Shown: piece by piece, positions 3,053 to 63,192 of the stretch | Numbering within the stretch: the stretch's first letter is position 1 | Layout: every line of letters begins with the position of its first letter | Assembly: GCF_002127215.1 (NCBI RefSeq) | Contig: NZ_NFUT01000001.1 | Location: 434,001 to 498,000 of the forward strand | Origin: Hydrogenophaga sp. IBVHS2 | GTDB lineage: Bacteria > Pseudomonadota > Gammaproteobacteria > Burkholderiales > Burkholderiaceae_C | DNA length: 64,000 nucleotides | Direction of reading: 5' to 3' | Made by a program: the position numbers and the translations under genes | The notes under the pieces: generated by a model | What the model saw: the letters and a program-made list of their open reading frames with translations, nothing else | Told to the model about the DNA's origin: nothing | The model's database searches: none

Positions 3053-3729
3053 CCGCCCCCATGCGACTGACCCTGTTTGACCTTGACCACACCCTGCTGC
3101 CGCTGGACTCCGACTACGCCTGGGGCCAGTTCACCGTGAAGCTGGGCTGGCGCGACGAGGCCGATTTCGGCCGCGCCAACGACCGCTTCTACCAGGCCTA
3201 CAAGGACGGCACGCTCGACATCCACGAGTACGTGCGCTTTGCCACCGACGCCGTGCGCGAGCGCGGCATGGCGGTCGCCCAGGCGGCGCACGAGCGCTTC
3301 ATGGCCGAGGTGATACGCCCGGCCATGACCGAGCAGGCCCGGGCCCTGGTGCGTGCCCACCAGGCGGCCGGCGACACGGTCGTCATCGTCACCGCCACCA
3401 ACGAATTCGTCACCCGCCCGATCGCCCGCGCCTTCGGCGTGGACGAGCTCATCGCCATCGATCTGGCCACCGGGCCGGACGGCGCGATCACCGGCGACAT
3501 CCGGGGCATCCCGTCCTTCCGCCAGGGCAAGGTGCTGCGTGTGGAACAATGGCTGGCCGATCGGGGCCTGCGCTGGTCCGATCTGCAGCACACCACCTTC
3601 TACAGCGACTCGCCCAACGACCTGCCGTTGCTCGAGAAGGTGCACGAGCCGGTGGCCACCAACCCCGACGAGCGCCTGAGCGCCGTGGCCCGCGAACGCG
3701 GCTGGCGCATCCTCCAACTCTTCGAATGA
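3049..3729 (+). CDS. HAD family hydrolase, subfamily IB (SerB-like phosphatase)
   Basis: This 226-residue cytoplasmic phosphatase belongs to the haloacid dehalogenase superfamily. Motif I is LFDLDHTLLPLDSD, with the nucleophilic Asp near residue 9. Motif II is VIVTATNEF, the motif III lysine is in FRQGKVLRVEQW, and motif IV is YSDSPNDLPLLEKV. The substrate is unknown: the group resembles phosphoserine phosphatase but is usually annotated only as HAD-IB. It is joined by ATGA overlaps to hda upstream and pcnB downstream, so the three are probably translated from one message. Confidence 0.92.
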   Translation: MTAPMRLTLFDLDHTLLPLDSDYAWGQFTVKLGWRDEADFGRANDRFYQAYKDGTLDIHEYVRFATDAVRERGMAVAQAAHERFMAEVIRPAMTEQARALVRAHQAAGDTVVIVTATNEFVTRPIARAFGVDELIAIDLATGPDGAITGDIRGIPSFRQGKVLRVEQWLADRGLRWSDLQHTTFYSDSPNDLPLLEKVHEPVATNPDERLSAVARERGWRILQLFE

Positions 3730-57947: not shown

Positions 57948-58658
57948 TCAGTCGGTCTTCAACACCCGGCGCAAGGCCCGGATCTTCTGCCAGACCAACG
58001 CCTTCGGCTGGGTCATGGCCATGACCTGCATGCACCGCTCCAGCCAGCCCGGGCGCTCCTGCAGCCGGTCGATCGCCTTGGCCAGATCGCGTGCCACCGC
58101 CGGCCCGTACGCCTCGGTGGCCTTGGTCAGTGCGGCGCGCAGCGCAGGCAGGCGCAGGTCCATCATGGCGAGGTCGATCACATCACGGCTGAACACGCCA
58201 TCGTCGGCCTGGCGGTCGGCGTTGGCCAGCAGCTTGGACGTGGCCAGGTCCAGCGGGGTCAGCGTGCTGATGCCACACACCACATCGGCAGGCCCTGGCG
58301 CCTCCAGGGTGATGCGTGCCTCGCGGACGATCTCAAACTTGATCGCCTGACTGTCCATCAGCACCACCGTGCGCACGCCGTACTGGTCGGCCCGCACCTC
58401 GCGCTGCTGCATCAGGGGCTGTGCTCCCGGTCGCACCAACGCGTTGATGCCCGCAGGCCCCGTGACCAGCCCGCGCAGCTCCCGGTAGCCTGTGGCGTCG
58501 GCCACCAGAAAGTCCATGTCCAGCGACTCGCGGTACTCACCGTGGCGCAGGGCGATGCAGGTGCCTCCGCCGAACAGGCAGCTGTACCTGCGCAAGGCGT
58601 CGCCATCCAGCGCACCCAGCACATGCGCGATGCGTTGGTGGTGCGGGCGTTCAAACAT
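57948..58658 (-). CDS. nucleotidyltransferase toxin, AbiEii/AbiGii family
   Basis: This 236-residue protein shows the nucleotidyltransferase pattern FGGGTCIALRHGEYRESLDM followed by DFLVADATG. The GG and D(M)D residues match the AbiEii/DUF1814 active site, with ISTLTPLDLATSKLLANADR and a helical C-terminus. Known relatives block translation by modifying tRNA. It overlaps the antitoxin gene by 8 bp and is transcribed second, as expected for a type IV-like AbiE or related pair. The target here is unknown. Confidence 0.85.
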   Translation of the reverse strand: MFERPHHQRIAHVLGALDGDALRRYSCLFGGGTCIALRHGEYRESLDMDFLVADATGYRELRGLVTGPAGINALVRPGAQPLMQQREVRADQYGVRTVVLMDSQAIKFEIVREARITLEAPGPADVVCGISTLTPLDLATSKLLANADRQADDGVFSRDVIDLAMMDLRLPALRAALTKATEAYGPAVARDLAKAIDRLQERPGWLERCMQVMAMTQPKALVWQKIRALRRVLKTD

Positions 58659-59166
58659 CGGGCCTGTCCATGACCGCAGTGCCGCCCAGCCCGGCCCGCA
58701 AGGCCTGCAACAGCGCCTGTTCGGCGGGCGTCATCGCGGCCGTATCCAGATGGCGCGCATTGCGCTCATAGATGCCCAGCGCCTCCAGGGGCGTGAGCGT
58801 GTCGGTGCCGTGCACCTGCCAGGCCAGCGCCTGGAGCTGCGGATAGCCGGCCAGGCGCACGCGGACGGGTATCCACTGCGACAGGTCCGCTTCGGGGATA
58901 TCACCTTCACGCATGGCGGTGGTGTCATCGGCATCGAGAGCCACCAGCGACAGGCCCAGCACCGCCATGGCATTGGCCCAGGCGCCCGCTGCCACCGAAG
59001 CCTCGCCCTTCTCGATGCGGTGCAGCGTCACCCGCGACATCCCGGCGGCCTCGGCGGCCGCCGTGCTGCTCACCTTCAGCGCCTTGCGGCGGGCGCGAAG
59101 TTGTGCCCCCAGGGCTTGCAGCTGGGCGGCACTGTGCGTGAGAGTGAGGGGAGTTCTTGCTGGCAT
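58651..59166 (-). CDS. XRE-type helix-turn-helix antitoxin/regulator
   Basis: This 171-residue protein has an N-terminal Cro/C1 HTH (LGAQLRARRKALKVSSTAAA then GMSRVTLHRIEKGEASVAAG, about 20-60). Its C-terminal half is helical and ends in DRPDV. It is the promoter-proximal partner of the nucleotidyltransferase and very probably represses the operon through the palindrome directly upstream. No ribosome-binding site is evident. The ATG lies only about 10 bases after the best -10 sequence. Confidence 0.87.
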   Translation of the reverse strand: MPARTPLTLTHSAAQLQALGAQLRARRKALKVSSTAAAEAAGMSRVTLHRIEKGEASVAAGAWANAMAVLGLSLVALDADDTTAMREGDIPEADLSQWIPVRVRLAGYPQLQALAWQVHGTDTLTPLEALGIYERNARHLDTAAMTPAEQALLQALRAGLGGTAVMDRPDV

Positions 59167-61171: not shown

Positions 61172-61501
61172 TCAGATGCTGCCCAGCGTGATCAGCTGCA
61201 GCACATCGGGCTGCATGAGTTCTTCCAGCGCCGGGTCGGGGCGATGGAGCCAGGCAGCGGCCAGCACCACGGCCAGGGCCAGCGCCCCGGCAGCCCAGCC
61301 GGCCCGGCGCAGGCGCTGGCCCTGTGCGCCATGGCCCGGGCCACCGGCGGTGGCCGCCTGCAGGGCCAGCTGACCGGCGTGACGCTGCGCCCACTGGGCC
61401 ATGACCCTCTCCTGCAGGGCCTGGGTGCTGGCATGGTCGGGCGGGTTCTGGTGCAGGCTGTCCTGCAGGGCGCGCTGCAGGTCGGTGTCGGACGGGTTCA
61501 T
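61172..61501 (-). CDS. DUF3619-like membrane protein, probable anti-sigma factor
   Basis: This 109-residue protein has a cytoplasmic N-terminus (about 1-68), one transmembrane helix (GWAAGALALAVVLAAAWL, about 70-87) and a short periplasmic tail. Length and topology fit the DUF3619 family often found behind ECF sigma genes. It overlaps the sigma gene by 4 bp and is therefore the prime candidate to hold the sigma factor at the membrane. No zinc-binding anti-sigma motif (HxxxCxxC) is visible. Confidence 0.78.
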   Translation of the reverse strand: MNPSDTDLQRALQDSLHQNPPDHASTQALQERVMAQWAQRHAGQLALQAATAGGPGHGAQGQRLRRAGWAAGALALAVVLAAAWLHRPDPALEELMQPDVLQLITLGSI

Positions 61502-62166
61502 GCGGTGCCTCCGGGGGTGAGGGCGCTGCGCAGCTGGCGCTTGGCCCGGTGCAGCAACTGGTGGGCGGCGTTGGCCTCGATGCCCAGGGCCTGGCCGATG
61601 GCAGCGGCATCGGCGTCGGCATAGGCCCACAGGGCCAGCGCCAGGCGCTGGCGCGGGGGCAGGGCGGTCAGGGCCGCGTGCAGCTGGTGGTGCTGCCGGG
61701 CGTCGTCCAGGGGCTCTTGGGCCATCAAGGCGCCGGTCTGCTGCTCCTGCAGGGTCTGGAGTTCGTCCGGGTCGGTGGCCCATTCGCGCTGGCGGCTCAG
61801 AACGCTGCGGCAGCGGTTGAGCACGATGGTGTGAAAGTAGGTGCCGATCCGGGCCGAAGTCTGGTCGTCCGGCCGGGCGCTCCACAGGCGCAGAAAGCTG
61901 TCCTGCACCACGTCTTCGGCGTCTTCGGGGCGGCCCAGCACCTGCCGCGCCAGGGCCAGGGCGGGCGGCGTCAGGCGGGCCACCAGGGCGCGGGCGCTGG
62001 CCGGGTCGCCGCCGGTGGCGGCCCGCCATTCGGCCCAGCCGTCGGCGGTGGGACTGAGGGCGCGGCGGGCGCGGTGCAGCAGGCCGGCCATGGCGGTCAG
62101 CAGGCGGCCAGCCTGCACGTGGGGCGCCGGAGCGAGGGCGGGCGGGTGTTCGGTGGCGGTGTTCAT
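61498..62166 (-). CDS. ECF-type RNA polymerase sigma factor
   Basis: This 222-residue sigma-70 family factor of the extracytoplasmic type has region 2 at about 70-125 (LARQVLGRPEDAEDVVQDSF, then LRLWSARPDDQTSARIGTYF) and region 4 at about 165-215 (LPPRQRLALALWAYADADAA, then IGQALGIEANAAHQLLHRAK). No region 1 or 3 is present. It lies in an operon between DUF3106 and DUF3619 genes with 4-bp overlaps on both sides, and probably recognises the paired promoter motifs at 62653-62761. Confidence 0.92.
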   Translation of the reverse strand: MNTATEHPPALAPAPHVQAGRLLTAMAGLLHRARRALSPTADGWAEWRAATGGDPASARALVARLTPPALALARQVLGRPEDAEDVVQDSFLRLWSARPDDQTSARIGTYFHTIVLNRCRSVLSRQREWATDPDELQTLQEQQTGALMAQEPLDDARQHHQLHAALTALPPRQRLALALWAYADADAAAIGQALGIEANAAHQLLHRAKRQLRSALTPGGTA

Positions 62167-62648
62167 CGCAGCGGCAGTTTCTCGCGCAGGGCGGCGCGTT
62201 CTTCGGGGGACATGGTCTCCAGCAACGCGCGGCGCTGGCGCAGCATTTCGCGGCGCTCGGCCGGACTCATGGACTCCACCTGCCGCCGCCGCTCGGCCGC
62301 CAGTGCCTGGCGCTGTGCGGGGCTGAGCTGGTCCCACTGGGCGCGGGCATCGCCGATCAGGGCCTGGCGCTGTTCCGGGCTGAGGTTCTGCAGCCGCTGG
62401 CGCAGCTCGCGCCGGAAAGCCTGGCGCTGCTCGGGGCTGGCGTTCTGCAGCTGGCGGCGGATGGCCTCGCGCTGGGCGGCCTGTTCGGCCGGGCTCAGGC
62501 GCGACCAGGCTTGCGGGTCGGGCACGGCCGGGGTCTGGGCCCGGGCCGTCGGGTGGACGGACGCCACAGTGGCTGCAGCGGCCAGCAGCAGCGCGGCCCG
62601 CCAGCGCCGGGCGCGGGCGCGTGCAGGGGGGATGACGGTTCTTTGCAT
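62163..62648 (-). CDS. exported DUF3106 protein with SPEQR-type repeats
   Basis: This 161-residue protein has a signal peptide (LLLAAAATVASVHPTARA). A helical, Arg/Gln-rich mature chain follows, built on repeated (L/M/A)SP(A/E)(E/Q)(Q/R) units: RLSPAEQ, NASPEQR, NLSPEQR, QLSPAQR, SMSPAER and TMSPEER. Such repeats resemble periplasmic Spy/CpxP/ZraP-like chaperones loosely. As first gene of the sigma operon it may sense or buffer an envelope stress, by inference. Confidence 0.85.
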   Translation of the reverse strand: MQRTVIPPARARARRWRAALLLAAAATVASVHPTARAQTPAVPDPQAWSRLSPAEQAAQREAIRRQLQNASPEQRQAFRRELRQRLQNLSPEQRQALIGDARAQWDQLSPAQRQALAAERRRQVESMSPAERREMLRQRRALLETMSPEERAALREKLPLR

Positions 62649-62652
62649 GACG

Positions 62653-62683
62653 CTGAAACCCGGCTGGGCGCCGTCTCTTACGC
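62653..62683 (+). promoter_or_regulatory. predicted ECF-sigma promoter, rightward
   Basis: CTGAAACC (62653-62660) is followed after 16 bases by CTTACGC (62677-62683), the arrangement of a -35/-10 pair for an ECF sigma factor. It would start transcription near 62690 toward the secreted-protein gene at 62827. The same two words recur on the opposite strand in front of the sigma operon. Confidence 0.65.
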
Positions 62684-62729
62684 GCCGGTCGGCAAAACCC
62701 GGCCGCCGGCCGGGGCATGGGCCGGCGCA

Positions 62730-62761
62730 GCGTAAGTGCGCCCTGTGTGCGGCGGTTTCAG
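62730..62761 (-). promoter_or_regulatory. predicted ECF-sigma promoter, leftward
   Basis: On the leftward strand CTGAAACC (complement of 62754-62761) is followed after 17 bases by CTTACGC (complement of 62730-62736). It would start transcription near 62723 toward DUF3106, sigma and anti-sigma, giving autoregulation. The two promoters face each other, so their 5' regions overlap by roughly 30 bases. Confidence 0.65.
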
Positions 62762-62826: not shown

Positions 62827-63192
62827 ATGACCTTCCATGCTTCGTTTCGCCGTGCCCTTCCCCTGGCCCTGACGCTGGCACTGGCCGGCCTGGCCGCGCA
62901 GGCCCATGCCCAGGGCGGCTGGCAGGATGCCCAGGCCGACCGGGTGGATGCCCGCCAGGACCGGCAGGCCGACCGCATCCGCCAGGGCGTGGCCTCCGGC
63001 GAGCTGACCCGGCCCGAGACCGCCCGGCTGGTGGAACAACAGCGCCACATCCGCCGGCTGGAGCGCCGCACCGAGGCCGACGGCCAGGTGACCGCCCGGG
63101 AAGCCGCCCGGGTGGAGGCGGCCCAGGACCGTGCCAGCCGCCGCATCCACCATGCCAAGCACGACGGCCAGGCCCGCCCCCGGGCGCGCTGA
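62827..63192 (+). CDS. small exported protein with two internal repeats
   Basis: I do not recognise a characterised family for this 121-residue protein. A Sec signal (LALTLALAGLAAQAHA) is followed by a helical chain rich in Arg, Gln and Asp. Two similar units can be read: GELTRPETARLVEQQRHIRR and GQVTAREAARVEAAQDRASR. GAGGAG precedes the ATG. Its predicted ECF promoter links it to the neighbouring sigma operon, suggesting a role in the same periplasmic response. Confidence 0.78.
   Translation: MTFHASFRRALPLALTLALAGLAAQAHAQGGWQDAQADRVDARQDRQADRIRQGVASGELTRPETARLVEQQRHIRRLERRTEADGQVTAREAARVEAAQDRASRRIHHAKHDGQARPRAR

Follow-up and report, generated by a model that had tools for sequence, protein, structure and literature searches.

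Two facing, probable promoters of ECF type and a loosely conserved palindrome between them in Hydrogenophaga and related bacteria

Why would two promoters with the same recognition words point at each other in front of an operon that itself encodes a sigma factor? The question is raised by a stretch of 64,000 nucleotides from Hydrogenophaga sp. IBVHS2 (contig NZ_NFUT01000001.1, positions 434,001 to 498,000; the whole stretch is called the window below). Promoters of extracytoplasmic function (ECF) sigma factors are commonly regarded as plain on/off sites for which the sigma is the sole reader. The original prediction for this DNA described a face-to-face pair of ECF-type motifs in a 178-bp gap between two start codons, and the gap, the words, their coordinates and their strands all proved correct: CTGAAACC-N16-CTTACGC lies at 62653-62683 (+) and CTGAAACC-N17-CTTACGC at 62761-62730 (-). 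The gene calls hold as well, with the leftward copy heading an operon that begins with DUF3106 and sigma factor genes and the rightward copy heading the gene of a small, probably secreted protein. Two elements are new beyond that prediction, namely the TTGAACC/CTTACG words of the relatives and a palindrome between the two -10 boxes. The elements of the gap are as follows, the transcription starts near 62690 and 62723 being estimates.

62653..62660, + strand: -35 word CTGAAACC of the rightward promoter, on the secreted-protein side (relatives mostly TTGAACC or TTCAACC)
62677..62683, + strand: -10 word CTTACGC of the rightward promoter (spacer of 16 in 31/31 pairs)
62690..62723, no strand: predicted transcript overlap, inferred from box positions with starts put 7 nt past each CTTACGC
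62693..62719, no strand: loose palindrome of 27 bp, proposed operator, here CAAAACC...GGGCATG, one base off the consensus
62730..62736, - strand: -10 word CTTACGC of the leftward (operon) promoter
62754..62761, - strand: -35 word CTGAAACC of the leftward promoter (relatives mostly TTGAACC; spacer of 17 in the window)

A chance origin of such a pair had been judged unlikely, and the counts bear this out. The promoter pattern has 2 matches in the window and 0 in 100 dinucleotide shuffles. The genome-wide search that had been proposed, run with TGAAACC-N15..18-TTACGC, returned the same 2 matches, both in the gap, from the whole genome (3,171,179 bases) and 0 with the reversed-pattern control, and the shorter 11-base core GAAACC-N15..18-TTACG still finds just these 2 (reversed control 1). 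These are counts of exact words, and weaker sites fall outside them.

Relatives were gathered through their sigma factor. A search of 118 genomes (E 1e-25) yielded 16 further members of the genus that carry it, plus one genome from another genus, and a profile search of 399 genomes of the family (E 1e-35) found 19 others, 4 of them already recovered by the first search, which gives 32 different sigma-positive genomes besides that of the window. Loss of the two words in relatives had been named as an outcome that would speak against the pair; in the aligned gaps, 30 of the 32 keep it, with no more than 3 mismatches across the four boxes (the TGAAACC form being scored as half a mismatch), and two (G066 and G168) do not. 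Counting the window, there are 31 pairs; in 18 every one of the four boxes is exact, and a homologue of the secreted protein stands beside each of the 31. The consensus toward the secreted-protein gene is TTGAACC-N16-CTTACG, with a spacer of 16 in 31/31; that toward the operon is TTGAACC-N16/17-CTTACG, with a spacer of 16 in 18 and of 17 in 13, the window included. The -10 boxes lie 46-48 or 35-38 bp apart in 30/31 pairs. The pair stays beside the secreted-protein gene even where DUF1800 and DUF1501 genes separate it from DUF3106. Linkage of pair and sigma is presumed in G037 and G058, where they are on different contigs that both have DUF1501 ends. The two exceptions have one exact site each and no secreted-protein gene in the 9.7 kb (G066) and 8.5 kb (G168) searched.

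Some details of these loci deserve mention in their own right. In G066 (L249/L274) and G168 (L255/L273) the operon-reading promoter is unrecognisable, while the outward-reading promoter and traces of the palindrome persist; in G168 a frame resembling RlpA by eye ends there. DUF1800 and DUF1501 genes between pair and DUF3106 were seen at eleven loci (L187, L188, L189, L193, L194, L197, L199, L200, L205, L246 and L250), and there are none in the window.

The motif also follows the sigma from genome to genome. Within the genus, exact TTGAACC-N15..18-CTTACG occurs in 17 of 67 genomes, that is, in 16 of the 16 other sigma-positive ones and in 1 of the 50 sigma-negative ones (Fisher 2e-14, not corrected for kinship), and 25 of its 26 exact hits are at this locus. 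Across the family it occurs in 23 of 299 genomes; 10 of these are not among the sigma-positive genomes of the profile search and have no facing pair, and we take them as background; the reversed control also hits many genomes. Homologues of the secreted protein are more widespread (84/299 family genomes). When the regions around the best-scoring 60 of the 85 matches outside the window were fetched, 15 had a sigma operon at most 6.5 kb upstream and all 15 had the pair, each promoter with at most 2 mismatches; in the 45 where no operon was found, six of them shortened by or near contig ends, the pair was present in 0. When 399 genomes of the order were searched for the pair (12 of them, counting the window's, belong to this family), the 2 hits did not resemble this locus: they are near-identical stretches in one other genus, and the one that was checked sits in a 743-aa reading frame. 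Apart from these pairs, the second contig of G293 (L265, ~3177-3205) has a lone exact motif immediately upstream of a reading frame and next to a distant DUF1800 homologue, a possible extra target of the sigma in that species.

What was found at this locus is a two-box motif with fixed spacing, upstream of a sigma operon and co-occurring with the sigma gene, as expected of ECF target promoters. The conservation of the sites, their co-occurrence with the sigma and the lack of other exact copies mean that both are very probably promoters of the adjacent ECF sigma, and the same three lines of evidence back the claim of a face-to-face pair. Both -35 words read TGAAACC in this species; among the pairs, TTGAACC stands in 29/31 leftward and 21/31 rightward promoters. 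That the two have changed alike suggests that one sigma reads both. As far as sequence comparison can establish it, the facing pair is a real and well-kept gene switch that recurs in about thirty related bacteria.

Between the -10 boxes, and inside the predicted transcript overlap at 62690-62723, the alignment of 30 genomes (G167 left out) contains a palindrome with a consensus of about CAWRYCC-N13-GGRYWTG. Its CC columns have C in 30/30 and 29/30 rows and its GG columns have G in 28/30 and 30/30. In a set of 25 less redundant rows the 8 best palindrome columns hold 10.99 bits; 60 single-base row shuffles give 4.67 (sd 0.48, max 5.61). Shared descent contributes to this conservation, yet the spacers of the same promoters, which serve as an inner control, are little conserved, save for a T before the rightward -10 box. 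The palindrome is conserved above shuffles, though loosely: 20 of the 30 rows are within 2 mismatches of its 14 letters, and the imperfect rows have one mismatch in 7 cases, two in 10, three in 4, four in 4, five in 1 and six in 1.

Its distance to the boxes takes discrete values. From palindrome to rightward -10 box there are 8-11 bases in 19 genomes and 0-1 in 11, and to the leftward -10 box 9-11 bases in 28 genomes and 0 in 2 (positions from the alignment); intermediate distances were not seen in any of the 30 aligned genomes. On a tree of the sigma, DUF3106 and third proteins (30 rows, without G167 and without the secreted protein) these spacing classes need 5 changes. For the long class, well-supported branches make at least 4 changes unavoidable, and the hypothesis that the rightward-short class arose once is rejected (p-AU 0.00017). 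An earlier tree that included G167 needed 6 changes; its secreted-protein rows ran past the stop in G037, G049, G167, G295 and G388. Since several changes are forced by the tree, roughly one helical turn has repeatedly been lost or gained, on either side. A loose palindrome whose conservation comes with just two spacings from the boxes suggests, in the first place, a DNA-binding factor or polymerase geometry.

We lean towards a reading of the boxes, their conservation, their co-occurrence with the sigma, and the palindrome with its spacing in which the two sites would be promoters of the adjacent ECF sigma whose polymerases are mutually exclusive, with the palindrome as the operator of a second factor. 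The mechanism would involve 1) free sigma driving transcription of its own operon to the left and of the secreted-protein gene to the right, and activation of both promoters by free sigma is well supported by the sequence comparisons; 2) competition between the two, each promoter being placed within the leader of the other gene; and 3) a putative second DNA-binding factor on the central palindrome, which would gate both promoters at once, much as the operator of the facing bio promoters does in E. coli. The second step would follow from the geometry of the enzyme: bacterial polymerase covers ~20 bases downstream of the start, so open complexes formed at the two sites would overlap and should be mutually exclusive.

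A number of observations weigh against this reading. First, the palindrome is not strict: only 3/30 rows match all 14 letters, 10/30 have three or more mismatches, its placement comes from a single alignment, and when the best palindrome was sought freely in every gap, the score was not clearly above shuffles (6.55 vs 6.32, sd 0.13); only the aligned element stands out. Second, no candidate factor for it was found among the neighbouring genes or through its other copies. The consensus occurs in 85 places in the 67 genomes of the genus against 18 for a reversed control, with 0-4 per genome and none in the window's own. No palindrome regulon emerged, the five loci inspected among the matches listed being in unrelated contexts, such as before fusA. 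The genes that follow the operon, compared by eye at 14 loci and on that side only, differ from locus to locus and include no conserved regulator. Third, an offset of 0-1 is also what the largest loss sparing both box and palindrome would leave, so a helical-turn rule is not proven, and G167 carries ~97 extra bp on one side. Fourth, a control with -35 and -10 reversed gives 37 scattered hits in the genus against 26 for the true pattern, so it is the place and the pairing of the hits, not their number, that bear the argument. Fifth, no window-only residue in region 4 of the sigma explains the -35 change, as the residues peculiar to the window fall outside that region.

Aside from the locus, an identical 27-bp palindrome of the consensus lies around the start of one gene in three genomes (L284, L288 (centre) and G021:C1:2794204-2794230), away from the sigma locus; it is possibly another operator or a hairpin.

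A more elaborate version, which we put forward tentatively, would make the gap a phased nucleoprotein switch: two holoenzymes with the same sigma would compete over the factor-bound palindrome, with all three sites on one face of the helix, and the pair would be the main or only regulon of the sigma. If so, one DNA segment would set the choice between making more sigma and making the secreted protein.

The overlap of the transcripts opens a different route, which we hold to be unlikely though worth weighing. Here ~24-34 complementary 5' bases would pair, or the polymerases collide, or both, and the result would be mutual repression with no extra protein. Overlapping leaders of about 30 bases had been claimed, along with interference or antisense pairing between them. 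The overlap itself stands by geometry, since the order and strands of the boxes in 31 genomes fit a facing orientation and starts estimated from them place ~34 nt in common here and ~24 nt in the genomes with a 10-bp shorter gap; folding and covariation gave the pairing no support. The box geometry is kept in 30/31 pairs, there is a modelled precedent in scbA/scbR of Streptomyces, with a 53-bp overlap of promoter regions (PMC7384680), and the operon leaders of three genomes are fairly stable (z of -2.95 in G295, -2.20 in G407 and -1.81 in G191). On average, however, the 45-nt leaders of 25 genomes fold about as well as their shuffles (mean z 0.11 for the rightward leaders and -0.32, se 0.21, for the leftward ones), and no pair of columns covaries significantly between the palindrome arms (lowest per-pair p 0.07, 24 rows). 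No conserved RNA structure or pairing element was thus found in the overlap, although plain antisense complementarity needs no structure, so that antisense pairing may occur even so. An overlap also requires no conserved sequence, yet the palindrome is conserved precisely there.

An RNA hairpin at the palindrome was considered separately, since by eye G295 and G191 have swapped bases in both arms, and was set aside as covariation and average folding do not support it. In the short classes, one transcript would, given the estimated starts, lose part of one arm. We therefore favour a role of the palindrome at the DNA level, which would fit better than one in RNA.

Less probable still is a compact divergent regulon with no interaction, in which two sigma-dependent promoters merely share a short gap and the palindrome is used otherwise or is a relic. 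Divergent pairs of sigma-target genes are common, the palindrome is loose, and G167 retains both promoters although their boxes are separated by 145 bp. Against it, the spacing falls into two discrete classes that were arrived at repeatedly, and the palindrome columns are conserved, which argues for a constraint beyond packing. It is improbable that the palindrome is itself part of the promoters, each half being a downstream element of the promoter that points at it: the long class does have each half 9-11 bp past its own -10 box on both sides, but a half abuts the rightward -10 box in 11 genomes and the leftward one in 2, so that each such genome would have one promoter whose downstream element, if its position is fixed, is disrupted. 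A chance match or an inverted repeat unrelated to promoters has nothing in its favour and is refuted as far as sequence goes, the shuffles, the genome-wide rarity and the co-occurrence in genus and family all being contrary to it.

Facing promoters are already known. In the bio genes of Escherichia coli, the operator lies between promoters served by the housekeeping sigma and is bound by a known repressor. Those promoters face each other as at this locus, and BirA is named as the repressor of the divergent bioA/bioBFCD operon (PMC3494674). Here, unlike in bio, both promoters have the same ECF-type words, the sigma is among the products, and the binding factor is putative. The locus also shares facing, overlapping promoters with scbA/scbR of Streptomyces coelicolor, where convergent promoter regions overlap by 53 bp and interference with antisense pairing has been proposed; the available part of that account gives ScbR as the regulator and mentions neither a shared ECF sigma nor helical-turn spacing (PMC7384680).

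On the side of the sigma, operons of the CnrYXH kind join an ECF sigma and its anti-sigma to a periplasmic partner, and a sigma, a membrane protein and a secreted helical protein are likewise found in one operon here. What differs from that kind is that the sigma's own promoter has a second, identical one opposite it; moreover, DUF3106 has no match by fold among solved structures (E 0.001). The usual ECF promoter words are GGAAC and CGTC, and TTGAACC/CTTACG is not of that type. ECF groups with group-specific motifs are mentioned in another study (PMC7406223). Among the papers searched, none mentioned DUF3106 and none had ECF sigma together with DUF3619, and in titles and abstract openings neither this sigma, its motif nor the locus was found described. 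Two promoters for one sigma that face one another across a conserved palindrome, in about 30 genomes and with no other exact copy in this one, would offer a small and nearly self-contained system for facing-polymerase exclusion, for helix-bound promoter spacing and for an ECF circuit gated by a second DNA-binding factor, and would place an unnamed secreted protein and DUF3106 in a single circuit.

The genes on either side of the gap are the following.

61172..61501, - strand: presumed anti-sigma, small and with a single membrane helix as judged by eye (from position and relatives)
61498..62166, - strand: ECF sigma factor with regions 2 and 4 (Pfam and NCBIfam matches)
62163..62648, - strand: DUF3106 gene, predicted secreted helical-repeat protein (Pfam DUF3106 2.1e-10; helical model, mean pLDDT 84)
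62827..63192, + strand: small, probably secreted protein encoded downstream of the rightward promoter, its N-terminus signal-like by eye

The sigma has regions 2 and 4 only (Pfam Sigma70_r2 4.9e-14 and Sigma70_r4_2 8.7e-08; TIGR02937 above cut-off), its profile matches solved ECF structures including CnrH (E 3.1e-10), and its nearest named relatives are four Hydrogenophaga records with 54-66% identity in the best segment. The label of anti-sigma given to its neighbour comes from position and shape and not from family: the protein of the window has no Pfam or NCBIfam match and no recognisable anti-sigma domain, and those of two relatives have no Pfam match above cut-off. The secreted protein at 62827-63192 likewise has no family above cut-off, and neither its structure model nor that of DUF3106 has a match by fold in the PDB at E 0.001.

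There is no clear ribosome-binding site before the first start codon of the operon (window 62648-62662 and its equivalents in L188 and L246). In the expected place stands the opposite promoter's -35 word; a good GGAG site does precede the secreted-protein gene. Distant DUF3106-sigma pairs with 32-36% identity occur in records of Polynucleobacter type (L007, L008, L009 and L022), in which no homologue of the secreted protein was detected. Further along the minus strand of the window, the reading frame at 58651-59166 has, by eye, a helix-turn-helix-like N-terminus. Lastly, the secreted protein itself contains two repeats whose helices are joined by G-x-[LV]-T-x-x-E loops, which by eye look like worn EF hands.
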